Of a stretch of DNA of 64,000 bases, positions 35,278-57,203 are shown piece after piece. The notes below the pieces were generated by a model. The model was not told where the DNA came from and did not search any database. It worked only from the letters and a program-made list of their open reading frames with translations. The DNA lies in the NCBI RefSeq assembly GCF_026004075.1, contig NZ_BPIK01000001.1, forward strand, positions 2,334,041-2,398,040, in the 5' to 3' direction. The position numbers and the translations under genes were made by a program. Position 1 is the stretch's first letter. The number at the start of each line of letters is the position of its first letter. The DNA comes from Meiothermus sp. (lineage in GTDB: Bacteria > Deinococcota > Deinococci > Deinococcales > Thermaceae).

Positions 35278-36217
35278 CTACCTGACCGACGAATGGATCA
35301 CACAGCAGCAACAACGACTGGACGCCGCCCACGAACAGGTGGCTCATGCCATCGCCTTGTTCGGGCGTGCTGGGGACTCTCTGCCCCGGCTGGAGGCAGC
35401 TCTGCAGGCTTCTGAGGAGCACGTATCCCGCTTGAGGATGGAGTTCGAGCAGGCTCGTGCCGGATTCCACAGCGAGGTGAATGGGTTGCTGAAGCGCCTC
35501 AAGGAGGAAGGCAAAGTCCAGATAGAGCGCCTGGGCCAGCACCTGAGCGAGACACTCAAGGATCTGGAGGGGTTGCGCGATCAGCGCCTGCTCTGGGAAC
35601 TGCGTGAGCGAGTTGAGTCACTCAAACAGCAGTGGTCCGCCACCCAGGAAGAGTGGCTTGAAGCCCTCCGCGAGGAAGTAGCGGCAGTTGAGGCTCGAGT
35701 ACAGGAACCGCTGCGAGACCTTGACCAGAATCTGCGCGGGGGGCTGGAGGCGCTTCAGAGTGAGGTATTCGGGGCCCAGACAGCCCTGCGCCAGGAGTTG
35801 AGCAGCCAGCTTGACCAGCTTCGGGCGTTGTTGGGACACATGAACTCGCAGATAAGTGCCGTTTCCCAGAGCCTGGAGCAGGAGGTGAGGGAACGGCAGG
35901 CCCTCGGCCTCGCCCTCGATACCGAGCGATCGGCCCGCGAAGCGCTGGGTCAGGAGTTGCACACGCTGCAGCAGACCCACGCCTTGCTGCAAGAGGAGTT
36001 CGGCGTACAGTCGCGGAGGCAGCAGGAGCTCGAGCGGCAGGTGCAGGAACTGGCTCAGACCCTGGAGCAGATGGGCGAAACCATCTCGAATACTCAGCAA
36101 AACAATGCAACACGGCTTGATCGACTCGAACGATACATACGCTCGCTGCTGGCCTGGTTCAGCTCTGTTCGTGGGCTCGCACGTCTATTTAAAAATCCCC
36201 AGGGGGTCGAGGGCTGA
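35270..36217 (+). CDS. Coiled-coil protein of the helicase operon
   Basis: The 315-aa protein is almost wholly heptad-rich helix (LKRLKEEGKVQIERLGQHL, VQEPLRDLDQNLRGGLEALQ, LEQEVRERQALGLALDTERS), ending in a short hydrophobic LLAWFSSVRGLARLF. It overlaps RecQ by 8 bp and the UvrD gene by 1 bp. It may be a scaffold, or a membrane tether through the end. No catalytic motif is seen. Confidence 0.75.
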   Translation: MADYLTDEWITQQQQRLDAAHEQVAHAIALFGRAGDSLPRLEAALQASEEHVSRLRMEFEQARAGFHSEVNGLLKRLKEEGKVQIERLGQHLSETLKDLEGLRDQRLLWELRERVESLKQQWSATQEEWLEALREEVAAVEARVQEPLRDLDQNLRGGLEALQSEVFGAQTALRQELSSQLDQLRALLGHMNSQISAVSQSLEQEVRERQALGLALDTERSAREALGQELHTLQQTHALLQEEFGVQSRRQQELERQVQELAQTLEQMGETISNTQQNNATRLDRLERYIRSLLAWFSSVRGLARLFKNPQGVEG

Positions 36218-38208: not shown

Positions 38209-38558
38209 GGAGCCGCCGCCCGCGGCGGCGCGGGCCGGTCAGGGGGCAGCTGCTCCCCCTGAGGGGCGGCTTATAGCGCTCTTCAGATGAAACGAGCCGG
38301 TGGAGAGGTGCCAAAGCTCGAGGTGGCCGTAAAAATCGCTGGCGTACTTTGCCAACGATTCCGATGGCCGCTGTACCCGCCTCTCCTCGTCCCCCTGGCT
38401 CACGCCCTATGGCTTTCCCGCGGGGCTGCCTCGCTCGGCCGGCTCGACCCTGAAACCCTGGCTCGATCAGCGCCGAATTGCGCGCTCGCGCCTCTACAAC
38501 CTCACCAAGCCGTCCCTGACGAGAAGCAACCCCCCCGAGCGCTCTCCTTTCCCGCCGC
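38209..38558. other. Gap after the helicase operon, with a terminator-like hairpin
   Basis: A near-perfect inverted repeat lies at 38239-38262 (arms TCAGGGGG and CCCCCTGA), about 30 bp after the UvrD stop, followed by another G/C-rich block. A 111-codon plus-strand frame at 38287 has no ribosome site or recognisable domain and I do not call it a gene. Nothing else is seen. Confidence 0.5.
38239..38262 (+). terminator. Hairpin after the helicase operon
   Basis: Arms of 8 bp (TCAGGGGG/CCCCCTGA) surround an 8-nt centre, with no strong T-run. It is a possible terminator or 3' stability structure of the operon. Confidence 0.4.
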
Positions 38559-39494
38559 TCAGCGGAGTGCCTGCGCCCCCTGGTACAGCGCCTGTCCTCC
38601 CTCAATGGATGCTTGGGCGTGACTCGTGGGAACGTAGCTCGAGCCCTGCTTCACCAATAGCCCCATGCGCTCCAGCTTCTTAAGTCGGTCCCCGGCGGAA
38701 CTCTTGGCGATCCCCAGCGCCCGGCTGATCCCCGAGGGGCCGATTGGCCCCTCCGCCGCCAGACGGAGTACTTCCTTATCCCCCTCGGAGAGGAGCAGGG
38801 TGGGTTCCTGTTGACGTTCTTCCGTGCGGGTCGAAATCTCCGACAGGGGTTCGCTCCTGGCTTTCTGTGGAACCGTGGCCGTTTGGACTGCCCGCACCGA
38901 CTGCCTCACCTGGCTGATCTTGGTTTCCACAGCCTCCGCTGAGAGGAGCGTCTCGAGGATAGCTTCGTACTGCGAACGCTCCTGCACCGGATCCACCGCA
39001 GCGCGAAAGGGTTGTGCCTGGACTACAGGCTCCTCGCTCGCTGCAGGGGCTTTGTCAACCACCCGGCTATCGCCGGGAAAAGACGCCACGCTTGACGAAG
39101 CGCGAAGTGTGGCAGTTTGGACCCGGGCCTCGTACATGCTGGAGAGGTTGCCCCAGAAGACCACGAAGGCCCCGATGAGGCTGCCCCAGAAGGCCCAGGC
39201 GGAGTGGATCACCACGTAGGAGAAGCTCATGTAGAAGGTCGCGACCTCCACCGCCAGCGCCAGCGCCCACGAGGCCCGCACCCCCTGGGCCTCGTAGCCC
39301 CGGTAGTAGTGGCGCAGGTGCGAGTAGGAGGAGGCCAGGGCCAGGGCGTACACCAGCACGCCGAAGGCTGCTCCAACCGCGCCGGTCAGGTCTCCACGGA
39401 GGAAGAAGTCCCCCACCACGCGCCCCGTGATGAGCCCGACCACCGGCAGGGCCAAAGCCGCGATAACCGAGAGCAAGGCCGCTTTCCAGTGCAT
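38559..39494 (-). CDS. Membrane protein with C-terminal winged helix-turn-helix
   Basis: The protein is 311 aa. The first 120 residues contain about four membrane spans (LLSVIAALALPVVGLITG, AAFGVLVYALALASSYSHL, WALALAVEVATFYMSFSYVV, WGSLIGAFVVFWGNL). A long polar linker leads to a MarR/IclR-like winged helix (LLLSEGDKEVLRLAAEGPIG, ISRALGIAKSSAGDRLKKLE). It may be a membrane-anchored transcription regulator, or a mobile-element protein that docks DNA at the membrane. Heptamer repeats just upstream may be its site. Confidence 0.7.
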   Translation of the reverse strand: MHWKAALLSVIAALALPVVGLITGRVVGDFFLRGDLTGAVGAAFGVLVYALALASSYSHLRHYYRGYEAQGVRASWALALAVEVATFYMSFSYVVIHSAWAFWGSLIGAFVVFWGNLSSMYEARVQTATLRASSSVASFPGDSRVVDKAPAASEEPVVQAQPFRAAVDPVQERSQYEAILETLLSAEAVETKISQVRQSVRAVQTATVPQKARSEPLSEISTRTEERQQEPTLLLSEGDKEVLRLAAEGPIGPSGISRALGIAKSSAGDRLKKLERMGLLVKQGSSYVPTSHAQASIEGGQALYQGAQALR

Positions 39495-39574
39495 GACACC
39501 ATGTTACAGAGCATATGGAATATAGTGTGCCTTCCTGATGTCGCGGGAATCCAGGGGGCCACTATCGCCAGAAC

Positions 39575-39685
39575 TCCCAACAATCCCAACATTCCCAACA
39601 AGGACATAAATAACGAGTCCTGAACGACATTCCTGGCGTTGGGAGTTTTTGTTTTTTCCAAAAGGGAATTCCCAACATTCCCAAC
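39575..39685. repeat. TCCCAAC heptamer array (9-bp period)
   Basis: TCCCAAC occurs at 39575, 39584 and 39593 (exact 9-bp steps) and again at 39670 and 39679 (also 9 bp apart). One inverted copy lies at 39638. The array ends 80 bp upstream of the membrane winged-helix gene start. It looks like an operator or iteron cluster. The rest of the 39495-40026 gap holds only one weak small ORF. Confidence 0.7.
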
Positions 39686-39774
39686 AGAAGAGACTCTCCG
39701 GAAGAGGAAGATTTTTTTCTCTTCCGGGGAGTCTTCTGTACCAGGGCTCGCTTGGGTGACCGCCAGGAGGTTGC

Positions 39775-43707: not shown

Positions 43708-44451
43708 ATGGAGAGCGCAACCCCCCTAAAGCTGGCTGAAGTGCGTGGTAAAAAAGCAAGGGCGAACTCTGAACTCGAGGCGGTGATTCGGGAGACGGCC
43801 AGGCTCTGGCGGAAGGCTCACCTGGACTACGACGGGAGCAAGTATGTGGTGGAGCGGGTGCGCCGCCTGATGGAGCTCTCTCCACCTACCAAGCGCCGCC
43901 GGGTGGTGGAAAGGCTTTCCCCGGAAGAGGTCGAGCGTCTGCTCCAGGCGGCTTACCGCATGAACCCCCGCAAGCCGGTCTTTGGCCTGATGCTCAAGAC
44001 CCTCTTCTACACCGGAGTCCGGGTGAGCGAGTTTGTCCACCTGCGGGCTCAGGACATCCACCTGGACGGGGAGGCCCCCTACATTTACGTCCACAAGGCC
44101 AAGAAGGACTCGGTGCGCTACGTGCCCATCCTGCCCGCCCTGGCTCAGGAGCTTCGGGTGCATCTGGCGGGCCGGACGCGGGGCCACCTCTTCGAGTCCA
44201 ACCGCCACGACCGCTACTCGGCTCGCGCCATCCAGAAGCTCATCCAGCAAGCGGCACAGGTCTCGGGGATTGAGAAGCGGGTCTATCCCCACCTGCTGCG
44301 GCACTCGGTGGCACAAACGCTGCTGGATCGGGGGATGCCCCTCGAGCAGCTTCAGAAGTTCCTGGGGCACCAGGATCCCAAGACCACCCAGATCTACGCG
44401 GAGAGTTCGCTCGAGCAGGTTGCGGAAAGTTACCGGCGGGTGTGGGGTTGA
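43708..44451 (+). CDS. Tyrosine recombinase (XerD-like integrase)
   Basis: The protein is 247 aa. All catalytic residues are visible: Arg105 (YTGVRVSE), Lys132/133 (HKAKKDSVR), His195 and Arg198 (PHLLRHS), His221 (FLGHQD) and Tyr230 (TTQIYAES). The N-terminal core-binding part is short (about 65 residues), so it may lack full arm or core binding. It probably integrates a mobile element. An IS5 copy begins 8 bp after its stop. Confidence 0.9.
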   Translation: MESATPLKLAEVRGKKARANSELEAVIRETARLWRKAHLDYDGSKYVVERVRRLMELSPPTKRRRVVERLSPEEVERLLQAAYRMNPRKPVFGLMLKTLFYTGVRVSEFVHLRAQDIHLDGEAPYIYVHKAKKDSVRYVPILPALAQELRVHLAGRTRGHLFESNRHDRYSARAIQKLIQQAAQVSGIEKRVYPHLLRHSVAQTLLDRGMPLEQLQKFLGHQDPKTTQIYAESSLEQVAESYRRVWG

Positions 44452-45588: not shown

Positions 45589-45703
45589 AAAAGCCACGCA
45601 ACCTCTACAGGGTGTAATGCGCGATCAGCATTGAGGCCATTGCCTAAGGGCTTTTACACGCCCCTTGACGAAGCCCCTCGTTGGGTTACACTTACACCTC
45701 AGT

Positions 45704-46978
45704 ATGACAGATCATGACCCAATAGAGTCGTTTCTAAGAGATGTGCGGAGAAACTCAGCCCCAGAAAAGGACAGCAAGTGGGAGCTTGATCTTATAAGGC
45801 AATTGGTGAATGAATCTTATAATCTCAAAACCGCTAAGCCGGAGGCCTCACTGGGCCGAATTCTGGCTGCAGCCTTTGATCTTGCAGTATCAGCGGCCTA
45901 CTATAGATACGTAAGTCAAAGGGGGTGGTTTTACTGTCCTTCCCCATCTCCAAGGTTGTACTTTCACTTTACAAATTGTTGTCCTCGGCATGCACTGGAC
46001 AATAGTTTCTACTTTAATAAGTCAAATAAACCAGAGTCTGCGAATATAGGTGAAGTAACCTCGCGAATTCTACGGCGATTTATTAGCGTGCTGTTTGAAA
46101 AAAATAATGTAAAGGCACAGGTTCTAAAGGGGAAGGAACCTATTGACATAGTTATTTTGGAAGATGCCGGTCAAAATCTATTTTTTGGTGAAGTTAAGGC
46201 AGCACCTCTATTGACTCTGCCACTGGCAAAGGACGCAGAGCCGTTTAAGGACGAGGAGGGGAATCTATTGAAGGATCATGATGCTCCAGTCGCTGTTAGC
46301 CCAATCTATAAAACTCCGATAAAGTTATTTGTGCCAAAACGTGATGACAACTCAAAGTGGACTGAACACCTTTTCACCCTTGGTTCTATAGAAAATGAAG
46401 ATGATTCGTTTTGGGGATACCGCTCCCTTCTTTCTCTTTTATCGAGCGATAAAACATTTTTTTCTACATTCTTTGATTTTTGGGACAATGCGTTAACATT
46501 TTATCATCCAAAGCGTAAACAATCTATCTTTTGGCTAACTAATGGATCGGGTGAACCTAATCCCGCACCGCCTCACTGGCCTTCTAGAAAGGGAGGTAAT
46601 GGAAAGAATCCTGAGAGCGTGTCTGATTCTAAGACAAGCGTTGGGATGGATAGGACAGACGATATAAAGAAGGGCATATATCAAATTCTAAAAATTGGAG
46701 TAGAAAACAAACCTTCTAAATCTAAATGGAAGCTTAGACTGGGCATTATATCAAATATCCACGCCGCAAGGCATTTTGAGGAATACTTATCCTCACTTCA
46801 GAATTTGGTATGGACTCTTGATGAAACAGGAAAAGCTCAAAAAGCAAGCGATCTTGATGATAATCACCCACTGTACAACCTATTTGATGGCATAATTACC
46901 TTTACACAGTCGCATATTCGAGACCCTTGGCTAAAGAGTATGTTTGACTTTGAGGCAAAATGGAAGATCCAAAACTAG
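45704..46978 (+). CDS. Probable restriction endonuclease with PD-(D/E)XK motif
   Basis: This 424-aa protein starts at ATG 45704 (MTDHDPIESFLRDVRRN). KEPIDIVILED followed by NLFFGEVKAA (about residues 145-167) is a D...ExK nuclease centre. Base composition is clearly AT-richer than the surroundings (runs of A and T, ATA/AGA codons), so it was acquired. It overlaps the methyltransferase gene by 19 bp, the classic order of a type II restriction-modification pair. Specificity is unknown. Confidence 0.65.
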   Translation: MTDHDPIESFLRDVRRNSAPEKDSKWELDLIRQLVNESYNLKTAKPEASLGRILAAAFDLAVSAAYYRYVSQRGWFYCPSPSPRLYFHFTNCCPRHALDNSFYFNKSNKPESANIGEVTSRILRRFISVLFEKNNVKAQVLKGKEPIDIVILEDAGQNLFFGEVKAAPLLTLPLAKDAEPFKDEEGNLLKDHDAPVAVSPIYKTPIKLFVPKRDDNSKWTEHLFTLGSIENEDDSFWGYRSLLSLLSSDKTFFSTFFDFWDNALTFYHPKRKQSIFWLTNGSGEPNPAPPHWPSRKGGNGKNPESVSDSKTSVGMDRTDDIKKGIYQILKIGVENKPSKSKWKLRLGIISNIHAARHFEEYLSSLQNLVWTLDETGKAQKASDLDDNHPLYNLFDGIITFTQSHIRDPWLKSMFDFEAKWKIQN

Positions 46979-48717
46979 CCTACTACTTGAAGCTTAGGTC
47001 TAACATACTTCTGGAAGGGGATGTTTCCCTTGCTGAGGAAGAGGCAAAGCACTTCTTTGAGAGTGTGACGAGAGTATTTGCTCCATCAATCGTGAGGGAT
47101 GTGATTGGCCTGCCAGAGACAATCGCAGATCTTCATGCAAGGGGATGCCAACCTATAGGTTTCATCGCACGTGGCACACTCTATACGATGGAAATGCTCG
47201 TACTGCAATTCAACTTTGTGCAGGAGATATGGCGAAGGTACACTCCAGAAGATGATGAACTTATTGGACGCGTTCCGTGGGTCACCCGCATAACCTACGG
47301 GGAGGCTGATTTCATCTGCGCTGTGCCGCTCATGGCAGCCGGGGAAATTCTCAGTCAGAGCAACCTAACCCAGACCACTCAAGAGACGCTTCGGGCGCTG
47401 GTCACGTTTCTAGCCACTGGCCGCCAAGGAAAGTTTCACCTAGTCAAACCAAATGGAGGTTCAACCTCAACCCAACATGTGCATGGTTTGCATGCCTATA
47501 AGGCTAAGTTCTTCCCGCGGCTAATTCGGTCACTAATAGTCACGTCCCTACCATCATTACCCCGCACCCCGGCAGGGAATGTATCACTCCTAGATCCTTT
47601 TGTGGGCAGTGGCACAGCCCTGGTTGAGGGGTCGATGCTTGGGTTTGAGAGTCATGGGATAGATATTGACAAGCTATCCTGTGCCATTTCCCAAGCCAAG
47701 CTAGACGCTCTAAGGCTCGATCAAAAGTTTCTTTCGCAGAGCATAGCTGAACTAAGTTCTCTGATCGAGCTTAGTCAGGAAGATGAAGGGTACACTTTCC
47801 CACCCATAATTGCTAAGAAATTCGATAGGAAGGGTAAAGTCGATGAAAAACGGATGTATGAAGTATCCATAGCCAGATGGAAACGGGCTATCACAGGGAT
47901 TGCCAATCCGGATGCTCGACGCCTGTTCGAAATCTGCTTAAGTGATGCCTTGACCCGAAAGTTCAATGTTCGAATGATGGGCACAGGGGTTGGTCGGTTC
48001 GCTCTGGAGGTAAGCAAGAAGTCAATTGATAGCATCATGCGCTCGAATCTCTCTAACTTATTGCGTGCTGCCTCAGTCGCGAAAACTATTGTCGAAGGAT
48101 ATGGATTGAGGTTAGCTCCCTCGAGCGTTCGTAGTGCAAATGCAGCCAAGCTCCCGTACGAGCCAGGTAGATTCAGCCTCATTGTCACATCTCCCCCATA
48201 TTTGCCTGCATCATCGGGACGTGAGGACTATCTGGTCGGCAAATTGATTTCTATCACAGCGCTCGGATTAATGTCTGAAGAGGAAATACATCATGTGGAA
48301 ACCGAAAGCATTGGATCGATGAAATCTACTCCTCCTGCTGGTGATGGTCTCCCCGACTCAGTACACAAACTTTACAATTGGTTGTTGACAGATAGCCTTC
48401 GGAGTATCAAGGCTCAACCTATTCTTGCCTATTACGAGGGACTGAAGAAAGCCCTGGAAGAGAGCTATCGGGTTCTTTTGCCTAATGGCTTGGCAATCTA
48501 TGTGATTGGGAAAGAGAGTGTATTCTATACCTACAGGACGCGAGAAGTGTTGTACAGGGTGCCCTGTGATGATATTTTTGGCGAACTAGCAACCTCCTGC
48601 GGCTTCATCGTGGAAAAAAGGGTAGATGTAGAACTCGATAAAAAAAATCGGAATGCAAGGCCGCGTTCAATGGATAAATACTACGAATCCATTTTTTTTC
48701 TGAGAAAACCCCGCTAG
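46960..48717 (+). CDS. DNA methyltransferase of the restriction-modification pair
   Basis: The protein is 585 aa. Motif I DPFVGSGTALVEG lies near residue 211, followed by FESHGIDID. The catalytic motif IV VTSPPYLPASS lies near 410, typical of amino-methyltransferases (N4-cytosine or N6-adenine; SPPY favours N4C). The N-terminal 190 residues carry no known motif and may be the target-recognition part. The order I before IV places it in an alpha- or gamma-like class. Composition is AT-rich like its partner. Confidence 0.85.
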   Translation: MEDPKLAYYLKLRSNILLEGDVSLAEEEAKHFFESVTRVFAPSIVRDVIGLPETIADLHARGCQPIGFIARGTLYTMEMLVLQFNFVQEIWRRYTPEDDELIGRVPWVTRITYGEADFICAVPLMAAGEILSQSNLTQTTQETLRALVTFLATGRQGKFHLVKPNGGSTSTQHVHGLHAYKAKFFPRLIRSLIVTSLPSLPRTPAGNVSLLDPFVGSGTALVEGSMLGFESHGIDIDKLSCAISQAKLDALRLDQKFLSQSIAELSSLIELSQEDEGYTFPPIIAKKFDRKGKVDEKRMYEVSIARWKRAITGIANPDARRLFEICLSDALTRKFNVRMMGTGVGRFALEVSKKSIDSIMRSNLSNLLRAASVAKTIVEGYGLRLAPSSVRSANAAKLPYEPGRFSLIVTSPPYLPASSGREDYLVGKLISITALGLMSEEEIHHVETESIGSMKSTPPAGDGLPDSVHKLYNWLLTDSLRSIKAQPILAYYEGLKKALEESYRVLLPNGLAIYVIGKESVFYTYRTREVLYRVPCDDIFGELATSCGFIVEKRVDVELDKKNRNARPRSMDKYYESIFFLRKPR

Positions 48718-48718
48718 C

Positions 48719-49294
48719 CCCCCGGCCCGCATCCTCAAGGAATTGGGGCGGCTGGCGGATGCCAAGGTGAACCCCCACCACTTCATCGACCTGGCCCTGG
48801 CCGCCGTCAGGAACACCCTCGAGGAGCTGATGGTGGAGGGCATCAAGTACGAACGGCTCGAGGGACAGGCCTACGACATGATGCTCTTCGAGAGCAAGGA
48901 ACTCATCGGCTATCTGGACAAAATCGTCGAGGTGAACAATTCCATCTATGACGGGGTGATCTTCCAGTCGGAGGTCGAGCGGGGCTTCGCCGAGGCCCTA
49001 GACAGGCGTGAGGACGTGAAGCTCTTCGTCAAGCTGCCCGACTGGTTCGAGGTGGACACCCCGCTCGGCAAGTACCGCCCCGACTGGGCCGTGGTCATGG
49101 TAGATGGGGAGCAGGAAAAGCTCTACTTCATCTGCGAGACCAAGGGCAGCAAGGACCCAACCAAGTTACGTATCAGCGAGCGCCTCAAGGTCGAGAGCGG
49201 CAGGGCCCATTTCCTGGCGCTCGAGGTTCCTTATGTCGTGGAGACCTCCGCAGCCGAACTGAGCCCTGAGCGCGTTCGATTAGATCGCGAATGA
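48719..49294 (+). pseudogene. Type III restriction enzyme (Res) 3' fragment
   Basis: Directly after the methyltransferase stop the frame reads ARILKELGRLADAKVNPHHF, then ELIGYLDKIVEVNNSIYD and the nuclease centre LGKYRPDWAVV ... YFICETKGS, with KLRISERLKVESGRAHF. This is the C-terminal endonuclease domain of a type III Res subunit; the helicase part is missing. G+C returns to the local average here, so it belongs to the older genome. Confidence 0.8.
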
Positions 49295-49353: not shown

Positions 49354-49863
49354 TTAGCCTTTCCGCACGCTTTCCCCTTCAGTGGTGAGCCGGATCACCT
49401 CGGGCAGCGGTCTGCCTTCAGCCACAGCCTTGGGCAACCCCTTGAGCCGCTCCAGCACCTTCCAGGGGATGTACTTGTGCTCCCCCTCCACAATCACCCT
49501 GGGGTAGGTGTAAAGCTCCCGCCCAATCCCCCAGACAGTGGCAGCCCGCTTCAGGGCCCCCGAGATGCCGCCCTTGAAGGGCTCCATGTCCGAAGCGCCA
49601 GAGCCGTCCTGCTTCTCCACCCACTCCCCGGTCTCGGGGTTCTTGATAGTTATGCCTGCGATGACCCCGTGCTCGTTGCCTACCTGCGCTGGGGCGTAGC
49701 GCACCTGCCAGCCAAACGGCCCGAAGGCCCGGTCCAGTCGGGTCATGACGGCACGAGCGTCAATGTAGGGGGCCAGGGTGGTGCTCCCGTTTTTGGAAGA
49801 AATGATCTTCCACTCGATTTCATCACTGGTGAGAGGCGCGGTCAAGATGTTGATGGCTTCCAT
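49354..49863 (-). CDS. Rad52/DdrA-like single-strand annealing protein
   Basis: This 169-aa protein has the Rad52/22 fold signature: LDRAFGPFGWQVRYAP, SDMEPFKGGISGALKRAATV and WGIGRELYTYP. Such proteins anneal single strands in phage recombination and, as DdrA, in Deinococcus repair. The ATG at 49863 follows GCAAGGAGGAAAC. It is the last gene of the minus-strand cluster. Confidence 0.88.
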   Translation of the reverse strand: MEAINILTAPLTSDEIEWKIISSKNGSTTLAPYIDARAVMTRLDRAFGPFGWQVRYAPAQVGNEHGVIAGITIKNPETGEWVEKQDGSGASDMEPFKGGISGALKRAATVWGIGRELYTYPRVIVEGEHKYIPWKVLERLKGLPKAVAEGRPLPEVIRLTTEGESVRKG

Positions 49864-49888
49864 GTTTCCTCCTTGCAAGAAAAGCAGA

Positions 49889-49913
49889 GGGGTGGCCGAA
49901 GCCACCCCCTGGT
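49889..49913 (-). repeat. Intergenic hairpin element 1
   Basis: ACCAGGGGGTGGC, a TTCG loop, then GCCACCCC, 26 bp before the Rad52-like start. The T for C change in one arm is matched by an A in the other, which keeps the stem. Confidence 0.75.
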
Positions 49914-49927
49914 GCTGTCTCCCTTCC

Positions 49928-50035
49928 TCAGAAGAGGTTCTCGTCCAGCAAGAGCTTCATCCGCCCCGCCCTTCCAACGCTCGCGCAGGGGGGTGGAGCG
50001 GTGGCTCCCGGTCTTCCCCATAGCCGTTGCTCATG
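49928..50035 (-). CDS. Possible 36-aa peptide coupled to the SWIM gene
   Basis: The ATG overlaps the SWIM stop (ATGCATGA), and the frame ends MKLLLDENLF. The ending recalls the start of DUF5615-type proteins but stops there. It fills the gap before the hairpin element; a weak call. Confidence 0.35.
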   Translation of the reverse strand, partial: HEQRLWGRPGATAPPPCASVGRAGRMKLLLDENLF

Positions 50036-50306
50036 CATCTTTAGCGGCCATCGTCTGAACCCCTGCCTTCTTCTCCCCCCGCTCGAGCAACACCGCCGCC
50101 AGCAGGTGCTTGCAGGTGTGTCCTTTGGCAGCGTCGGGGCAGGTGCAGGTCTCCCGTTCAAGGTCTACCAGGTAGTTCTCGTTCCCCCGCACCACGTAGG
50201 TATGGGAGAGGCCCTCCACCCGGTGTACCCGCCCCTCTAATAGGATACCCTCGGCCCGCTCCAGCCGGTTCAGAAAGCCCTCAATGCGCTCGCGGATGTT
50301 TTTCAT
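50031..50306 (-). CDS. Small SWIM zinc-finger protein
   Basis: This 91-aa protein contains CTCPDAAKGHTCKHLLAAVL, a SWIM motif (C-x-C-x8-C-x-H), with a preceding beta hairpin HTYVVRGNENYLVDLERE. SWIM domains bind DNA or proteins. The ATG at 50306 follows GCGAGGAAAAA. It is common in phage early clusters. Confidence 0.82.
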   Translation of the reverse strand: MKNIRERIEGFLNRLERAEGILLEGRVHRVEGLSHTYVVRGNENYLVDLERETCTCPDAAKGHTCKHLLAAVLLERGEKKAGVQTMAAKDA

Positions 50307-50329
50307 GGTTTTTCCTCGCTCAAAGAAGT

Positions 50330-50354
50330 GGGGCGGCATGAGCCGCCCCCTGGT
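50330..50354 (-). repeat. Intergenic hairpin element 2
   Basis: ACCAGGGGGCGGC, loop TCAT, GCCGCCCC, directly after the stop of the upstream gene and 24 bp before the SWIM start. Confidence 0.8.
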
Positions 50355-51262: not shown

Positions 51263-51469
51263 CTACTGCATAACCTGCCAGAAAAGCCACATGTTGATCG
51301 GAAAAAACGCGATGAAGAAGGGCTTTTCCGAACTGATGTAAACACTTGCGCTAAGATCGTCTATTTCTATCCGGGCATAACCGTGGCGCTGTCTAAGAAC
51401 CTCTTCCAGTCTTTCCCGTAGCTCCATCATCTGCGCCGGGGTTTCGATGCTTTCAGGGTCAGAGAGCAT
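51263..51469 (-). CDS. Unknown 68-aa protein
   Basis: It starts at ATG 51469 (MLSDPESIETPAQMMELRER) after AAAGGAGTTCTGTT. It has a helical N-terminus and a hydrophobic C-terminus (FFIAFFPINMWLFWQVMQ), perhaps membrane-associated. The gap to the previous gene holds hairpin element 3. Confidence 0.6.
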   Translation of the reverse strand: MLSDPESIETPAQMMELRERLEEVLRQRHGYARIEIDDLSASVYISSEKPFFIAFFPINMWLFWQVMQ

Positions 51470-51496
51470 AACAGAACTCCTTTCCATGCTCACCTG

Positions 51497-51520
51497 GGGG
51501 GCCCTCGAGGGCCCCCTGGT
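51497..51520 (-). repeat. Intergenic hairpin element 3
   Basis: ACCAGGGGGCCC, loop TCGA, GGGCCCCC. The stem differs from the usual GGGGGCGGC form but pairs fully. It directly follows the DnaC-like gene stop. Confidence 0.75.
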
Positions 51521-52282
51521 TCAAAACCGCCTGTCCGGCCCCTGCACCTCCGCCACCAGCCCACCCCGGATGCGCGACAGCACGGCTTCTCCCACCTCGC
51601 CCAACCGCGTGGCGAAGACTTCCGGGGCCAGGTTGGAGGTGAGGATCAGGTCGTAGCGGCCTGCACTGGCCCCCTCCACCAGGGCGTAGAGGCGTTCGGC
51701 GCTGAAGGGGGAGAGGCGGCTCTTGCCCCCGTCGTCGAGCACCAGCCGCTCGTACTGGGGCAAGGCCCCTTCCCCCGCCGCCGCCAACCGCTCCTCGGCC
51801 AGGAAATCCAGCTCGCTGCGGAAGCGCACGAACCGCCCCTCCTCGCACAGCCGCGCTGCCAGCCGCAAGGCCAGGTGGGTCTTGCCCACCCCCGGCGGGC
51901 CGAAGAGGAAGAGGATGCCCCCGCCATAGGCCCGCACCGCATCCACGGCCTGCTGGTTGCCGCCGTGGATCTCGAGGGGCTTTTCCAGGTACTCCCGGTA
52001 GCGGGGGTAGCCCTCCAGGTCGGCCCGCAGGAGCCGGGGGGCGGTGTAGCGCCGCCAGGCCTTGAGCAAAGCGGCCTGGTAACGCTCGGGCTCGAGGTAG
52101 CCGCAGTCGCAGTCGTGCTCGATCTGGCTGGGCCGGGCGAAGGCGTACCCGCTCAGGGCTGCTGCCCCGCACAGCGGGCAGGGGGGCAGGGCGGGGTCGG
52201 TGGGGGGTTCTTGCCCCCCTTTGGCCTTCATGGCCGCCAGCCAGGGGGCAAGGTCTAAAACTGCTCGCCGGTCGGTGTCCAT
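51521..52282 (-). CDS. DnaC-like helicase loader (AAA+ ATPase)
   Basis: This 253-aa protein has a zinc knuckle at the N-terminus (CPLC at 35-38, CDCG at 58-61), then an AAA+ core: Walker A FGPPGVGKTHLALRL (GPPGVGKT 128-135), Walker B YERLVLDDGGKS and sensor LILTSNLAPE. It should load the replicative helicase at the element's origin. It overlaps the initiator-like gene by 28 bp. Confidence 0.88.
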   Translation of the reverse strand: MDTDRRAVLDLAPWLAAMKAKGGQEPPTDPALPPCPLCGAAALSGYAFARPSQIEHDCDCGYLEPERYQAALLKAWRRYTAPRLLRADLEGYPRYREYLEKPLEIHGGNQQAVDAVRAYGGGILFLFGPPGVGKTHLALRLAARLCEEGRFVRFRSELDFLAEERLAAAGEGALPQYERLVLDDGGKSRLSPFSAERLYALVEGASAGRYDLILTSNLAPEVFATRLGEVGEAVLSRIRGGLVAEVQGPDRRF

Positions 52283-52947
52283 ACCTGCTTCTCCTCCCGC
52301 TTCTGCCCGGCCAGCACCCGGGCCGCATAGCTCAGGGGGTTCTCCGCGCCCCGCTTCCGCACCTCCAACAGCACCTTCTGCACCTCGGCGTCCCCCAACC
52401 GCTCGAGCTCCTTCGCAAACTCCCCCAGCCAGGCCAGGGTGGTGGGGATTCGCCGGGGCAGTGGCAGGCCCTCGGCCAGGTTCAGCAGTTCCAGCAGGCT
52501 CTCCCGGTGCTCATGGGCCAGCCTTTGGATCAGGGGGTTCTGCTCCTTGCGAGCGCGGAACAAGAGCCCGGCCCGCCAGCCGCCGAGTGTCTGGGCCAGC
52601 GCCCCGGCGGGGTCGGGGTAGCGGGGACGTTCTGTCCCCTTTTTCCGTGGGATTTCCGGGGACACTTTGTCCCCCTGTTTCACGTTTTTTGCGGGGGTTT
52701 TTTCCGCTGCTGTACGCAAAGGGGCAGGACATTTTGTCCCCTCGTTTCGCGGGATTCCGGGGGACATTTTGTCCCCTCGAATCCGCTGTTTTGCCTTTTT
52801 CAAAGCGGCGGGCTTGCCCAGTGGAAAAGCCCTGGGGTCTTCCCCCAGGGCCTCCCACAGCAAAAGCCCGTCCTTGAGGGAGAGCCGCTCGAGCAACGCC
52901 GTCAGGCGGCCCGCCTCAAGCCGATACCAGCGCTTCGTCCGGGGCAT
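52255..52947 (-). CDS. Initiator-like replication protein with origin repeats inside
   Basis: This 230-aa protein has an N-terminal helical part (YRLEAGRLTALLERLSLKDG), then a polar central section with two related peptides (RGDKMSPGIPRNEGTK and QGDKVSPEIPRKKGTE), and a C-terminus (EVQKVLLEVRKRGAENPLSY) like phage DnaD-type or helicase-loader partners. The central DNA carries two 52-bp repeats. Its position upstream of the DnaC-like gene matches phage initiator-loader pairs. Confidence 0.65.
   Translation of the reverse strand: MPRTKRWYRLEAGRLTALLERLSLKDGLLLWEALGEDPRAFPLGKPAALKKAKQRIRGDKMSPGIPRNEGTKCPAPLRTAAEKTPAKNVKQGDKVSPEIPRKKGTERPRYPDPAGALAQTLGGWRAGLLFRARKEQNPLIQRLAHEHRESLLELLNLAEGLPLPRRIPTTLAWLGEFAKELERLGDAEVQKVLLEVRKRGAENPLSYAARVLAGQKREEKQVWTPTGEQF
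52623..52776. repeat. Origin-like repeats: four GGGGAC-N5-GTCCCC palindromes
   Basis: Palindromes lie at 52623, 52658, 52725 (one arm CAGGAC) and 52760. They form two 52-bp units (52623-52674 and 52725-52776) in direct repeat, each with palindromes 35 bp apart. A T-rich stretch separates the units. This is the layout of a phage-type origin inside the initiator gene. Confidence 0.75.
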
Positions 52948-53143
52948 GTTGTGCCAGGGCCAGAAAGCCCTCCTCCGAGAGAGGATGCCGCCAGAGTTCG
53001 GCGGCTCGCTCCCCCACCGCCACCGGCACCACCCGGTAGCGCCTGCGGTCAGGGAAGATGACCGCCAGCTCAGGCCGCCCGTGATCCGGGGCCTTCTCCA
53101 GGTACGACAACCCGATCCGCTTCAGTTCCTTGTACTGCCGCAT
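52916..53143 (-). CDS. Unknown 75-aa protein
   Basis: It starts MRQYKELKRIGLSYLEKA and contains RPELAVIFPDRRRYRVVPVA, a small beta-rich fold. It overlaps the upstream and downstream genes by tens of bases, so the starts are not certain. No family is recognised. Confidence 0.55.
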   Translation of the reverse strand: MRQYKELKRIGLSYLEKAPDHGRPELAVIFPDRRRYRVVPVAVGERAAELWRHPLSEEGFLALAQHAPDEALVSA

Positions 53144-53300
53144 CCTCCACCTCCACCAGTCCGCTCCCACCGCAAAACGAGCACCGCACGCACTCCTCGC
53201 TGGGCAGGTAGTTGCCAAACGCGCTGCTGTAGTAGCCGGGGCCGCCCACATAGACCAGGTAGCCGTCGCCCCCGCATTCCGGGCAGATTTCCTCTCGCAT
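53070..53300 (-). CDS. Small DnaJ-like zinc-finger protein
   Basis: In this 76-aa protein CPECGGDGYLVYVGG and CVRCSFCGGSGLVEVED form two CxxCxGxG-like knuckles, as in DnaJ cysteine-rich domains. The last 25 residues overlap the next gene and have no motif. The ATG at 53300 follows GAGGTGGGAT. Confidence 0.65.
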   Translation of the reverse strand: MREEICPECGGDGYLVYVGGPGYYSSAFGNYLPSEECVRCSFCGGSGLVEVEDAAVQGTEADRVVVPGEGPGSRAA

Positions 53301-53321
53301 ATCCCACCTCGGAAGAAGGAA

Positions 53322-53345
53322 GGGGGCGGCCCACCGCCCCCTGGT
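53322..53345 (-). repeat. Intergenic hairpin element 4
   Basis: ACCAGGGGGCGGT, loop GGG, CGCCCCC, right after the stop of the gene at 53346. Confidence 0.75.
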
Positions 53346-53555
53346 TCATTCCTCAGCCGCCATTTCCGCAATGTCGAGGTGGAAGGCCCGCAACTGCTCA
53401 TAGAGCGTTTCCTCGTCGAGGGTTGTCCCCTCATCCACCGCCTCGCTGATGAAGTCCCCGATCTTCCACAGCGCATCTTCCTGGAACTCGGGGGACTCGC
53501 CCTTCAGCCGCTCGAGCACTCCGATCAAGACTTCGATGTTCTTCAGCGTTCTCAT
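53346..53555 (-). CDS. Unknown acidic 69-aa protein
   Basis: It begins MRTLKNIEVLIGVLERLKGE and ends LRAFHLDIAEMAAEE. It is wholly helical and acidic, which suits a DNA mimic or small regulator. The ATG overlaps the upstream stop (ATGA). No family is recognised. Confidence 0.55.
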   Translation of the reverse strand: MRTLKNIEVLIGVLERLKGESPEFQEDALWKIGDFISEAVDEGTTLDEETLYEQLRAFHLDIAEMAAEE

Positions 53556-53836
53556 ATCCGCTCCCTCCGCAACCGCTCCATGATTTCCCGCTCCTCCGGG
53601 GTGAGCGGCAGGTCATCCAGGGACTTCAGGCGGGGGCGGGCTGGTTCAGGCTTGGTTCGAGGGGGTTGCGCCGCCCTTGCACCAAAGGCAGCCAGGGCCG
53701 CCTCGACGGCCTTTCGCTGGGCCCGGATGCCCCTCGAGGCCAGCAGCAGCCGGGCCTGGGCCACGGTCAGGTGGGTGCCATTGGACAGCCGGGCCAGGCA
53801 GTCCCGTAGAGCTATAGGGTCGTTGATCCGTCGCAT
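53552..53836 (-). CDS. Unknown 94-aa protein
   Basis: The ATG at 53836 follows AAGGAGGTTTG. It starts MRRINDPIALRDCLARLSNG and has a possible helix-turn-helix (LTVAQARLLLASRGIRAQRK), then a Pro-rich linker and a charged end (LTPEEREIMERLRRERI). It may be a DNA-binding regulator. Confidence 0.55.
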   Translation of the reverse strand: MRRINDPIALRDCLARLSNGTHLTVAQARLLLASRGIRAQRKAVEAALAAFGARAAQPPRTKPEPARPRLKSLDDLPLTPEEREIMERLRRERI

Positions 53837-53846
53837 CAAACCTCCT

Positions 53847-54173
53847 TCAAGCGAGGGCGTAGTACAGTTCCCACTGGTAGCGGTCTTGGGCGAAGACCTT
53901 GCTGTAGGCCAGGCCGATGTGATCGGGGTAGTCGGGGTCGCTGTCCGCAACTTTGAACCAGCGGACGAGCGGGCGGTAGTAGCTCTCTCCGAATCGGCTT
54001 TCGCACAGGGCAGCCTGCTCGTCGTACCCTGCCTTCAACCCCCGTGCGGCCTCGATGGCCGTGGGCGTGTCGATCCCACTCAGGCGCATGAGTTGCCGTA
54101 GCAGGGCCCGCAAGCTGCCGGTTGCCACGGCAGTTCCGTCAACCCTTATCCAGAGCGATTCTTTTGTTTGCAT
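53847..54173 (-). CDS. Unknown 108-aa protein
   Basis: It starts MQTKESLWIRVDGTAVATGS. The C-terminus FKVADSDPDYPDHIGLAYSK is typical of small phage proteins of unknown role. It lies 2 bp after the MGYTHYW gene. Confidence 0.55.
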   Translation of the reverse strand: MQTKESLWIRVDGTAVATGSLRALLRQLMRLSGIDTPTAIEAARGLKAGYDEQAALCESRFGESYYRPLVRWFKVADSDPDYPDHIGLAYSKVFAQDRYQWELYYALA

Positions 54174-54175
54174 CG

Positions 54176-54613
54176 CTATTCCCCCAGCACGAAGAAGGGA
54201 TCTACCGGGTAGCCCAGCTCCCGCTCCACCAGGCGGCAGGCGTCCGCCCATTCCGCAACCGTGCCGTCCGAACGCACCTCTATCGCCCTCTCGGCGTGCC
54301 AGCGGGCCAGGGTCAGGGCCGCCTTCACCGCCAGGTCGTAAGGCAGTCTGCGGGTCTTGCAGAAGCCGAACAGGCCGCTCGACGTGTGTATGTAGTTGCT
54401 GCGCCGGGCGTCCAGGATGAAGCTCTCGCAGTCCTCCGGGCTGATCCCGTTGAGGTAGAGGCCTCGGGGCCCGATGCTTGCCTCCCCCTTCCCCATCGGC
54501 CCAGCCAGGTGGGGCAGTTGGGGCCTGAGCGCCTCCAGATCGGCGGCAATCTGGGGTAGGGATTGCTCCAGCCCGTCCAGGTCTCTCACTGTCCAGTAGT
54601 GCGTGTATCCCAT
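54176..54613 (-). CDS. Conserved phage protein, MGYTHYW type
   Basis: This 145-aa protein opens MGYTHYWTVRDLDG, a start I recognise from a widespread phage and plasmid family without known function. It also contains ESFILDARRSNYIHTSSGLF and AEWADACRLVERELGYPVD. The ATG follows GGAGGAGCAC. Confidence 0.72.
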   Translation of the reverse strand: MGYTHYWTVRDLDGLEQSLPQIAADLEALRPQLPHLAGPMGKGEASIGPRGLYLNGISPEDCESFILDARRSNYIHTSSGLFGFCKTRRLPYDLAVKAALTLARWHAERAIEVRSDGTVAEWADACRLVERELGYPVDPFFVLGE

Positions 54614-54622
54614 GTGCTCCTC

Positions 54623-54979
54623 CTACGAGCGGTAGCGCAGCCAGGCCGACTCGGTGCCCACGAGCGGCAGGCCGCTGTGCCGGATGGCCAGGGCATGGGT
54701 GGGGCTCAGCGGTCGGCCCAGCGCCTCCGGGCCGAACACCTCGAGCACCGCGGCGAGCAGGGCCTCGGTCTCCCACTCCTCCTCTTCCCCCGCCGCCTCC
54801 GCAAAGGAGGTCACGGTGGGGGTGGCGTCCACCGCCTCCACCTTCAGATCCAGCCGTTCCAGCAAGGCCAGGATGAAATTCTCCCAGGCTTCCGTGGCAC
54901 TCCAGCGGGCTATGGGGCGGTTCTGCCGGAAGATCAGGTACTCCGGCTCGTCGAAGCAGGTGAGCTTGATCAGCAGCAT
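54623..54979 (-). CDS. Unknown 118-aa protein
   Basis: It starts MLLIKLTCFDEPEYLIFRQN. An acidic centre (EAAGEEEEWETEALLAA) splits two structured parts. The ATG follows GAAAGGAGAAACC. It lies 11 bp after the 76-aa gene. No family is recognised. Confidence 0.6.
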   Translation of the reverse strand: MLLIKLTCFDEPEYLIFRQNRPIARWSATEAWENFILALLERLDLKVEAVDATPTVTSFAEAAGEEEEWETEALLAAVLEVFGPEALGRPLSPTHALAIRHSGLPLVGTESAWLRYRS

Positions 54980-54990
54980 GGTTTCTCCTT

Positions 54991-55221
54991 TCAGTCCAGC
55001 AGCTTGCGGATGGCCTCGGCGCTGTACTCCTCCGGTCGAAGGCTTTGCGACGAAAGCCGATTGACGATGTTCAGCGCCCGGGCCAAAGCGTTGTAAAGCT
55101 CGGCCACCTCGCTGGTGTTGGGGGTGTAGCCGAACCGTTGTTGGCGCTGGTGGATCTGCTTGAGCGTGTAATCCAGGATGCCCACCGCCTCACGTGACTC
55201 GCGCAGAAGATCTCTTTTCAT
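54991..55221 (-). CDS. Unknown 76-aa helical protein
   Basis: It starts MKRDLLRESREAVGILDYTL and is almost all helix (EVAELYNALARALNIVNRLS). The ATG at 55221 follows GAGGAGGCAGCC and hairpin element 5. Confidence 0.6.
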   Translation of the reverse strand: MKRDLLRESREAVGILDYTLKQIHQRQQRFGYTPNTSEVAELYNALARALNIVNRLSSQSLRPEEYSAEAIRKLLD

Positions 55222-55245
55222 GGCTGCCTCCTCGAAAAGACAAGC

Positions 55246-55270
55246 GGGGCGGCCTCTGCCGCCCCCTGGT
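55246..55270 (-). repeat. Intergenic hairpin element 5
   Basis: ACCAGGGGGCGGC, loop AGAG, GCCGCCCC, between the macro-like gene stop (55280) and the next start. Confidence 0.8.
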
Positions 55271-55279
55271 GCTGCTTGC

Positions 55280-55750
55280 CTACTTGCGGTACAGCCGCAC
55301 CGCTCCCGAGACCTCGGCCAGGGTTGCCTCCAGCACCCCCCACACCGCCTCGGGCGACAGCCCGCCCAGCCCGATGCCGGGGAAGGCCAGGTGGACAACA
55401 ACGCCGGGATGCTCCACCAACCACAGGCGCAGCCGCTCGGCGCTGAAGCGGACGAGCTCGAGGTCGCTCCCCCGGCGGAAGTCCAGCTTGCTCTGGAAGG
55501 CCCCGTAGAGGCGGTCTTCGAGCCGCACCGCCACGAAGCCGTAGCGCCAGAAGCGGCCCACCCGCACCCCCTCCCGCTCGATCCGACGGGCCAGGGCTTG
55601 CCGCAGGGCAGGGCGGTGCCGCGCCAAGGCCAAGGCGGCCCCGGCCCCCATCACCAGGCCCGCTGGCGCAATGACCCCGTTGGTGGGGGCGGCCACCAGG
55701 CCCCCTTCGTCGCCTAGTCCCTTGAGGAAGTCGCCCCTAACGATGTCCAT
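55280..55750 (-). CDS. Macro-domain-like protein
   Basis: This 156-aa protein has VAAPTNGVIAPAGLVMGAGAAL, cut as PTNGVI and GLVMGAGAAL, which matches the ADP-ribose loop of macro domains; LAFPGIGLGGLSPE matches the second phosphate loop. Macro domains remove or bind ADP-ribose, so this may counter ADP-ribosylating defences or act in NAD metabolism. It overlaps the upstream gene by 14 bp. Confidence 0.7.
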   Translation of the reverse strand: MDIVRGDFLKGLGDEGGLVAAPTNGVIAPAGLVMGAGAALALARHRPALRQALARRIEREGVRVGRFWRYGFVAVRLEDRLYGAFQSKLDFRRGSDLELVRFSAERLRLWLVEHPGVVVHLAFPGIGLGGLSPEAVWGVLEATLAEVSGAVRLYRK

Positions 55751-56135
55751 ACAGGACCTCCACCGCCCGGTCCAACCGCTCGAGTAGCCGCTCCAGCCGT
55801 TTGCGCCGGGCCTGAAACTCGCCCATCAGCCTCCGATACCGTTCTGGTGTCACCATTCCCTCCGGGGGGCTCCAACCCTTGCCCAGGTAGCGCTCGATCT
55901 TCCGGCCCTCCCTGTGCTCGATGAGATACGGGTAGGGGCCGTGCAAAGCGCCCCGCGTGCAGCGGCACCCCGCCTTCCCGCAGGTCTTCCGCTTCCACAC
56001 CACCCGCAAGGGTAGCAGGCCCTCCAGCCGGGCCTGGGCCTGCCGGAGATCCCGCTCGGCCTCCTCGATCAGGGCCAGCAGGTTGTCCAGCGCTCTCACA
56101 GCCCGCGCCCGTTCTTGCCCCAGATCCAAACCCAT
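55737..56135 (-). CDS. DUF6788-like protein with Cys motif
   Basis: The protein is 132 aa from the ATG at 56135. A coiled-coil start (LALIEEAERDLRQAQARLEG) is followed by CGKAGCRCTRGALHGPYPYL, the hallmark of a small Cys-rich phage/plasmid family, then REGRKIERYLGKGWSPPEG and a charged helix. It may bind a metal and nucleic acid. Confidence 0.65.
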   Translation of the reverse strand: MGLDLGQERARAVRALDNLLALIEEAERDLRQAQARLEGLLPLRVVWKRKTCGKAGCRCTRGALHGPYPYLIEHREGRKIERYLGKGWSPPEGMVTPERYRRLMGEFQARRKRLERLLERLDRAVEVLYGHR

Positions 56136-56158
56136 ACCCACCTCCACGGGGGCAAGAA

Positions 56159-56338
56159 TCAGGCCGCTTTGGCCTGACCCCCTTTGAGGCGCCGGTAGAG
56201 CTCCCTGAGCGTGGCCGAGACCTGCCCGCTCGAGACCACCTCAAACTCCCCGTCCTGCTCGATCCAGCCGTAGTAGAGGTGCTCTTTGAGGAGTTCCAGC
56301 AGGGCCTTGACTTCCTTTTCGCTGAGTTCGATCTGCAT
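56159..56338 (-). CDS. Small paralogous protein A
   Basis: The protein is 59 aa from the ATG at 56338 (MQIELSEKEVKALLELLKEH). Its motif HLYYGWIEQDGEFEVVSSGQ recurs in the protein at 56575-56781, so they are paralogues. The ribosome site GATGAGGTGATC precedes the start. Confidence 0.65.
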   Translation of the reverse strand: MQIELSEKEVKALLELLKEHLYYGWIEQDGEFEVVSSGQVSATLRELYRRLKGGQAKAA

Positions 56339-56362
56339 AGCGATCACCTCATCGAAAGAAAC

Positions 56363-56388
56363 GGGGCGGCGGGAGGCCGCCCCCTGGT
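56363..56388 (-). repeat. Intergenic hairpin element 6
   Basis: ACCAGGGGGCGGC, short loop, GCCGCCCC, between the basic 44-aa gene stop and paralogue A. Confidence 0.8.
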
Positions 56389-56390
56389 TC

Positions 56391-56525
56391 TTACTCGTCC
56401 CGCAAGGCCTCCCGCCGCCGAGCTCCCCGAGTCTTCATCCTTTTCTGCCGCTTATCGCCGTGGGTCTGGGTACTGCGGCCCATTCCCCAGGCATGGCCTC
56501 GAGCAAAACGCACGCGCTTTTTCAT
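56391..56525 (-). CDS. Basic 44-aa protein
   Basis: It starts MKKRVRFARGHAWGMGRSTQ and has about one third Lys and Arg, so it may bind nucleic acid. The ATG at 56525 follows CCGAGGCGGAT. Small size makes it less sure, but the position between two hairpin elements supports it. Confidence 0.5.
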   Translation of the reverse strand: MKKRVRFARGHAWGMGRSTQTHGDKRQKRMKTRGARRREALRDE

Positions 56526-56549
56526 ATATCCGCCTCGGAAAAGGAAAAA

Positions 56550-56573
56550 GGGCGGTCTCTGCCGCCCCCTGGC
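56550..56573 (-). repeat. Intergenic hairpin element 7
   Basis: CCAGGGGGCGGC, loop AGAG, ACCGCCC. The stem is slightly imperfect. It follows the stop of paralogue B. Confidence 0.75.
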
Positions 56574-56574
56574 T

Positions 56575-56781
56575 TCAGCCGTTGGAATCGGGCCTCTGCC
56601 TCCGGGCCTCCCGCAGCCGCCGGTAAACCGAGCGCAGGGCTTCGGAGACGACCCCGCTGGCCGCCAGGTCGAACTCCCCCTCCAGCTCCACCCACCCGAA
56701 GTAGAGGTGGTCGCCGAGAAGACGCTCGAGAGCCCCGGCCTCTTTGGGGTCGAGGTCGAGGGTAAGCGCGAGTGCTGGCAT
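56575..56781 (-). CDS. Small paralogous protein B
   Basis: The protein is 68 aa from the ATG at 56781 after GAGGAAGAT. HLYFGWVELEGEFDLAASGV and LRSVYRRLREARRQ match paralogue A. It is the first gene of the early cluster. Confidence 0.65.
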   Translation of the reverse strand: MPALALTLDLDPKEAGALERLLGDHLYFGWVELEGEFDLAASGVVSEALRSVYRRLREARRQRPDSNG

Positions 56782-56809
56782 ATCTTCCTCACTTTGCATG
56801 CAAAGAAGC

Positions 56810-56833
56810 GGGGCGGCCTCTGCCGCCCCCTGG
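56810..56833 (-). repeat. Intergenic hairpin element 8
   Basis: CCAGGGGGCGGC, loop AGAG, GCCGCCCC, upstream of the first gene of the cluster. It lies in the leader, so the element is not only a between-gene spacer. Confidence 0.8.
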
Positions 56834-56863
56834 GACTGTCGGAATACTTGGTTACTCTGGCTA

Positions 56864-57203
56864 GTGGTATGGTAACTAAATTTCCGAAGTTATGTACCGC
56901 ACACCGAATACATCGTTGTAGAGATTCCATCCCACCTCGGCCCCCGAGATGGCCTAAAAACGCCCTCCCTACCGCGTAGGGAGGGTGGGGGAGGGTATTA
57001 GGCAAGGCCCCCAATCGGCTGCGTGAAGGGCCAGGTCAGCCACCCCACCTGGCCTCCCCTACGCAGTAGGGGAGGGAAGGGGCGAAGCGGGGTGGGGTGC
57101 TTTTTGCATGACCGTACAGGCAAGGCACCGAAGGCCCCGGTTTACGCGACACGGCGCGTTCTGAAGGCTAAACCCCATACTGCGTATTTTGTTACCAGAC
57201 CAC
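56864..57203. mobile_element. MITE-like element with IS630-type ends (340 bp)
   Basis: It has terminal repeats GTGGTATGGTAAC and (inverted) GTGGTCTGGTAAC, one mismatch in 13 bp. TA lies immediately left of the left repeat (56862-56863); on the right a T separates the repeat from TA (57205-57206). The ends match those of the adjacent IS630 element. It contains no ORF. Inside are the palindromes at 56963-56985 and 57053-57075. Confidence 0.65.
56963..57075. repeat. Two related palindromes (REP-like)
   Basis: CCCTCCCTAC/GTAGGGAGGG with a 3-nt centre at 56963-56985, and CCTCCCCTAC/GTAGGGGAGG with a 3-nt centre at 57053-57075. They lie 90 bp apart inside the MITE-like element and could form a larger cruciform. 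Confidence 0.7.

Follow-up and report, generated by a model that had tools for sequence, protein, structure and literature searches.

The window, a 64,000-nucleotide stretch of the genome of a Meiothermus sp., contains an integrated element in which a gene for a 230-aa protein is followed by a gene for a DnaC-like helicase loader. The features of this part of the element are as follows.

52255-52947, minus strand: initiator-like gene (P0001), 230 aa, with orthologues in five Meiothermus-type species
51521-52282, minus strand: DnaC/IstB-like AAA+ helicase loader (P0002), 253 aa (PF01695, 2.1e-10; phrog_50, 1e-17)
50031-50339, minus strand: SWIM zinc-finger protein in the same operon-like run (PF04434, 1.2e-6), present in six of six elements
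49354-49905, minus strand: Erf/Rad52-type single-strand annealing protein (phrog_1097, 1.5e-34; PF04098, 4.5e-11), present in six of six elements
43708-44451, plus strand: tyrosine-recombinase-like integrase, named from its sequence, present in five of six elements at 86-93% identity

The start of the loader gene overlaps the 3' end of the initiator-like gene, and the loader lies downstream in all six orthologous loci; an earlier note on this DNA was right to place the gene upstream of a DnaC-like loader. Between the integrase and Erf genes of the window lies a type II restriction-modification pair.

The 230-aa protein has no match in Pfam, PHROGs (none at E up to 1) or NCBIfam, a sequence search against solved structures returned nothing, and no close relatives are present among phage records, plasmid records or viral contigs. 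Whole-genome searches revealed intact orthologues in five other species, with 66-80% identity and a loader orthologue downstream in every case, as well as degraded copies in two further genomes (G025 and G026). Two parts of the protein can be delineated.

52777-52947, minus strand: N-terminal domain, residues 1-57, with three predicted helices (5-21, 24-33 and 46-58)
52255-52620, minus strand: helical C-terminal domain, approximately residues 110-230, with homology to the C-terminal end of O-like initiators

The full-length AlphaFold2 model, built from a three-sequence alignment, is poor (pLDDT 43). The order of its parts is nevertheless clear: the three N-terminal helices come first, followed by a disordered stretch (residues 59-112) and a helical C-terminal part. 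The N-terminal segment modelled alone yields the same three helices with a pLDDT of 65, a prediction of low to moderate confidence in which no winged helix is recognised. The C-terminal part aligns with larger O-like initiators of relatives (hhalign E 2.5e-5, probability 75%), which themselves match PHROG replication initiation families, clearly for L013 and L036 and weakly for L041. It also aligns with a 216-aa homologue from the genus Thermus, as judged by hit taxonomy (hhalign E 2.7e-8); the genes of the Thermus homologues contain no repeated palindromes. We regard the C-terminal domain as a candidate loader-binding domain and the N-terminal domain as a candidate for binding the sites described below.

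The DNA coding for the disordered stretch coincides with a group of palindromes, listed here in plus-strand coordinates.

52623-52639: palindromic putative iteron, site 4 in coding order, GGGGACGTTCTGTCCCC
52658-52674: palindromic putative iteron, site 3 in coding order, GGGGACACTTTGTCCCC
52675-52724: T-rich (plus strand) spacer between the two pairs, GC 0.52, with a phylogeny of its own, unlike that of the sites
52725-52741: imperfect palindromic putative iteron, site 2 in coding order, CAGGACATTTTGTCCCC, with two mismatches in the outer pairs
52760-52776: palindromic putative iteron, site 1 in coding order, GGGGACATTTTGTCCCC

Four GGGGAC-N5-GTCCCC palindromes had been claimed in the earlier note; four sites do lie where it put them, three of them perfect and one with two mismatches. 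Their start-to-start spacing of 35, 67 and 35 bp agrees with the two direct-repeat units it had described, 35 bp inside each and 102 bp apart, and the unit at 52623-52674 recurs at +102 as a 68-nt match with 75% identity. These three are the only perfect GGGGAC-N5-GTCCCC palindromes in the 3.25-Mb genome, and the loose pattern (up to two mismatches) is not enriched in the whole window (8 found, 8.9 expected). Furthermore, GTGACANNNTGTCAC occurs 12 times and GGGGACANNNTGTCCCC 4 times in eight whole genomes, in every case inside the initiator gene, which speaks against dispersed repeats and against sites of a global regulator.

The GC content is about 0.50-0.60 over the four sites, compared with 0.62-0.83 outside. 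Among the orthologous genes, the linker has a GC content of 0.48-0.58 against 0.62-0.70 for the remainder of the gene, with no clear AT tract. The plus strand has a strong T bias over the site region, in line with the T-rich spacer reported previously; this spacer is at best a weak candidate for a melting region. The GC skew along the element has no turning point, and this check, suggested in the earlier note, was uninformative.

The window sites encode the peptides GDKMSP, GTKCP, GDKVSP and GTERP. One reading frame, shared by sites 1 and 3, gives DKMSP or DKMSQ, and another, shared by sites 2 and 4, gives TKCP or TKCH, so that the element common to all four is the DNA and not the peptide. Codons used in the sites are rare among the neighbouring genes (TGT for Cys 9%, TCA for Ser 3%, ACA for Thr 12%, AAA for Lys 17%). 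When the protein was kept fixed and codons were drawn at the usage of the neighbouring genes, with 20000 draws per gene, the palindromy of the window gene (25 of 28 pairs) was reached by 2 of the 20000 versions. Palindromy exceeds this synonymous expectation in all six orthologous genes, 0 to 18 of the 20000 draws reaching the observed pairing.

The sites are also conserved as DNA. The orthologue in G031 bears the same palindromes at the same spacing as the window (genome G000), and between these two genomes no DNA of the gene is better conserved than the four sites, at 96% identity compared with 68% for the spacers, 82% for the N-terminal part and 85% for the C-terminal part. The palindromes outlast protein conservation, the outcome that the earlier note had looked for. 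Among the Meiothermus relatives, the palindromes stay at the same places, although four of the five orthologues use a second palindrome sequence. We call type A the sites with GGGGACA half-sites (G000 and G031) and type B those with GTGACA half-sites (G023, G035, G039 and G030). The type B sites read GTGACA-N3-TGTCAC at places matching those of type A; sites 1-4 are present in two genomes, and sites 1-3 in G039 and G030, where site 4 is lost. Both arms of the palindrome change in step between the two types. A match to the initiator gene in Calidithermus roseus (L047, G026:C34) covers the C-terminal part only and stops at one of these sites, beside hairpin-rich sequence resembling a transposon end.

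One segment of the protein changes together with the sites.

52777-52806, minus strand: predicted helix 3, residues 48-57, ALKKAKQRIR in type A and ARRQAMHRIR/K in type B

Within residues 45-57, 5 of 13 columns separate type A from type B, compared with 0 of 44 in the rest of the N-terminal part, 0 of 130 in the C-terminal part and 0 of 253 in the loader, in a comparison that includes two type A genomes and one genome per species. The linker itself also differs between the types, being the site DNA in translation. The other element proteins each have at most one type-separating column. Between types, nonsynonymous codon changes affect 5/10 and 6/10 codons of helix 3 against 3/44 and 4/44 in the N-terminus (p 0.003 and 0.001), and within type A the ten codons of helix 3 have five synonymous changes and no nonsynonymous one. 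Moreover, a decayed copy from a third genus combines a B site with a B helix. The sites and helix 3 have therefore switched jointly between A and B, but part of this could be linkage, since the DNA coding for helix 3 adjoins site 1.

The remainder of the gene does not follow the types. In the N-terminal 132 bases, G000 groups with G023 and G035, and G031 with G030 (and G039); in the 50-base spacer 2 between the two pairs of sites, G031 groups with G030 and G039, and G000 with G023. At the sites flanking spacer 2 on both sides, G000 groups with G031. A single recombination tract bearing helix 3 and all the sites was considered and rejected, because spacer 2 groups the genomes differently.

Similar arrangements are found outside this family. 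In G034, another species of the genus, an O-like initiator (phrog_345) lies upstream of a DnaC-like loader (L037:467-1426, G034:C133), and its linker contains six GTCACCAAANNGTGAC palindromes that occur nowhere else in that genome. Viral contigs with two neighbouring palindromes of the two types numbered 36 and 18; of the 45 open frames that contain sites, phrog_270 and phrog_678, both replication initiation families, are matched by 24 each. In a wider scan with a winged-helix profile, the domain was found, among the matches listed, in the site-bearing frames of 50 of 114 loci, in each of which the domain begins ahead of the first site, and the profile gave 0 matches in 214 reversed sequences. 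Taken together, the viral scan results indicate that palindromic sites in the linkers of phage-type initiators are a widespread arrangement. We also tried a rule across families that seemed promising by eye, in which Lys or Arg at the start of the recognition helix would go with GGACA or TGACA half-sites, and it failed: all TGACA-type initiators have Arg and GGACA-type initiators have either residue, in a model seeded with TGACA types and biased accordingly. In one viral contig (L048:1627-1705), three GTGACATCATGTCAC palindromes follow closely downstream of a short O-like wHTH frame (phrog_9773, 1e-25) and lie outside it.

The kind of arrangement seen in the window is already known, while the family of its initiator is unnamed. 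In phage lambda, the O gene itself contains four palindromic iterons; dimers of O bind them, and O acts together with P (PMC6022878, PMC7466680). The window resembles this system in having four palindromes inside the initiator gene, in a linker that would separate an N-terminal DNA-binding part from a C-terminal loader-binding part, and in having the loader gene directly downstream. It differs in that its protein has no PHROG match, its loader is a DnaC/IstB-like AAA+ protein and not lambda P, and its sites are spaced 35/67/35 bp start to start with no strong adjacent AT-rich tract. In the Bacillus phage SPP1, oriL lies within gene 38 and is bound by gp38, and the loader gp39 and the helicase gp40 are needed for replication (PMC6316719). 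Both systems combine origin repeats within an initiator gene with a phage helicase loader, but the repeats of SPP1 are direct and that phage has a second origin, and no phage record matches the window protein. O-like and DnaD-like phage initiators (PHROGs 270, 678, 391 and 345) also have repeated palindromes of the same classes, GTGACA-N3-TGTCAC and GGGACA-N3-TGTCCC, in the linker after the DNA-binding domain; these proteins have a recognisable winged helix, whereas the shorter N-terminus of the window protein has three predicted helices and no library match. Finally, integrated elements that encode a replisome organizer together with DnaC have been described in Firmicutes (PMC5704250). These integrative and mobilizable elements share with the window element its integrated state and a phage-type theta replication module, and differ from it by host, here a member of the Thermales, and by its restriction-modification cargo.

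By analogy with lambda O/P and SPP1 gp38/oriL, we consider it probable that the locus serves an integrated mobile element as its replication module, that the origin is embedded in the initiator gene, and that the palindromes act as iterons. The earlier note had proposed an origin in a lambda-O-like initiator gene, and judging from the C-terminal homology and the paired palindromes in viral O-like linkers it appears to have been right in substance. Initiator dimers would bind the four iterons through the small, helical N-terminal domain, and residues 48-57 (helix 3) would touch the outer bases in every half-site. The iteron DNA itself codes for the disordered linker, which would need only to tolerate that sequence. 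The C-terminal domain would then recruit the DnaC-like loader encoded directly downstream, which would put the host replicative helicase on the AT-richer linker DNA after excision of the element. Of these steps, binding by the protein, melting of the DNA, loading of the helicase and excision of the element are all inferred. On this reading, origins of the gene-O type would also occur in integrated elements of the Thermales, here together with an initiator that is unknown to family libraries. We put forward more tentatively, and as a doubtful proposal on present grounds, that the three-helix, non-winged N-terminal domain represents a new origin-reading fold and that the two alleles are natural orthogonal origin specificities, in which five helix residues set the preference for GGGGACA or GTGACA. 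As the sites and one helix are changed together in the two alleles, origin specificity could be tested by swapping few residues or bases. The viral scan further suggests that paired linker palindromes could be used to find, from sequence alone, phage initiators that have gone unrecognised, together with their origins.

Two questions make up the main doubt about an intragenic origin: do the sites act in replication or chiefly in autoregulation, and does the module still work? A relic, in which the sites were inherited from an active origin and are now out of use, is unlikely: transposase-like frames lie on both sides of the module and degraded copies exist in G025 and G026, but the initiator, loader, Erf and integrase frames of the window are intact, and the sites and helix 3 are under purifying selection between G000 and G031. 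We find it rather more improbable that the palindromes are operators for transcriptional control by the initiator or by another protein of the element, with the origin elsewhere. The palindromic sites of an autoregulator would show equal conservation and the same co-switch, and a small conserved protein encoded upstream (53555-53836) looks HTH-like by eye. Against this, the sites are about 170-325 bp into the initiator gene, no copies of the palindrome stand in front of any gene, and the small HTH-like protein has one type-linked column only. No promoter-like sites were found in 51400-57200, although Thermales promoters may differ, and the adjacency of the loader and the viral parallels favour replication over an operator role.

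A function as mRNA hairpins in the control of translation or decay, and not as DNA sites, is very unlikely. The coding strand does fold far better than shuffled sequences (z -5.4), as it would with any set of palindromes, but selection for hairpins would permit stems to differ from one position to another, and the sites of one gene share one sequence and change together; the accompanying change of a protein helix argues against it as well. That the palindromes are a dispersed selfish repeat of REP or RPE type inserted in the gene is barely credible despite their short length and pairing as direct repeats, since the many copies typical of such repeats are lacking in every genome searched and the spacing is fixed across species.

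Several other features of the element and its surroundings were recorded. The restriction-modification pair (45665-48717) consists of a type II restriction enzyme (PADLOC, 1.3e-103) and a methyltransferase, and is apparent cargo of the element; it is followed at 48743-49294 by a sequence resembling the C-terminal part of a type III restriction enzyme, present in four of six elements. No phage structural genes were noted in the stretch that was read, in an unsystematic reading. Near-identical hairpins, GGGGCGGCAGAGGCCGCCCC, lie between small genes upstream of the initiator (55246-55265, 56363-56383 and 56810-56829), and similar ones are found in the orthologous locus L005. DnaA-box-like sites resembling TTATCCACA with at most one mismatch number 13 in the whole window against 4.9 in shuffles, with 1 of 100 shuffles as high, and form no cluster at the initiator. 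In Meiothermus luteus, a paralogue of the DNA polymerase III beta-clamp (L046:8752-9759; phrog_947, 2.4e-32) is encoded directly before the initiator, and tblastn found it absent from the other five regions. Farther from the module, large helicase and nuclease-like genes (a DpdF-like helicase and a UvrD/GajB-like gene) at 27359-38208 may form a defence island. Part of this run, given as 33771-39688, is 92-99% identical in G031, though the initiator regions of the two genomes differ by about 20%.
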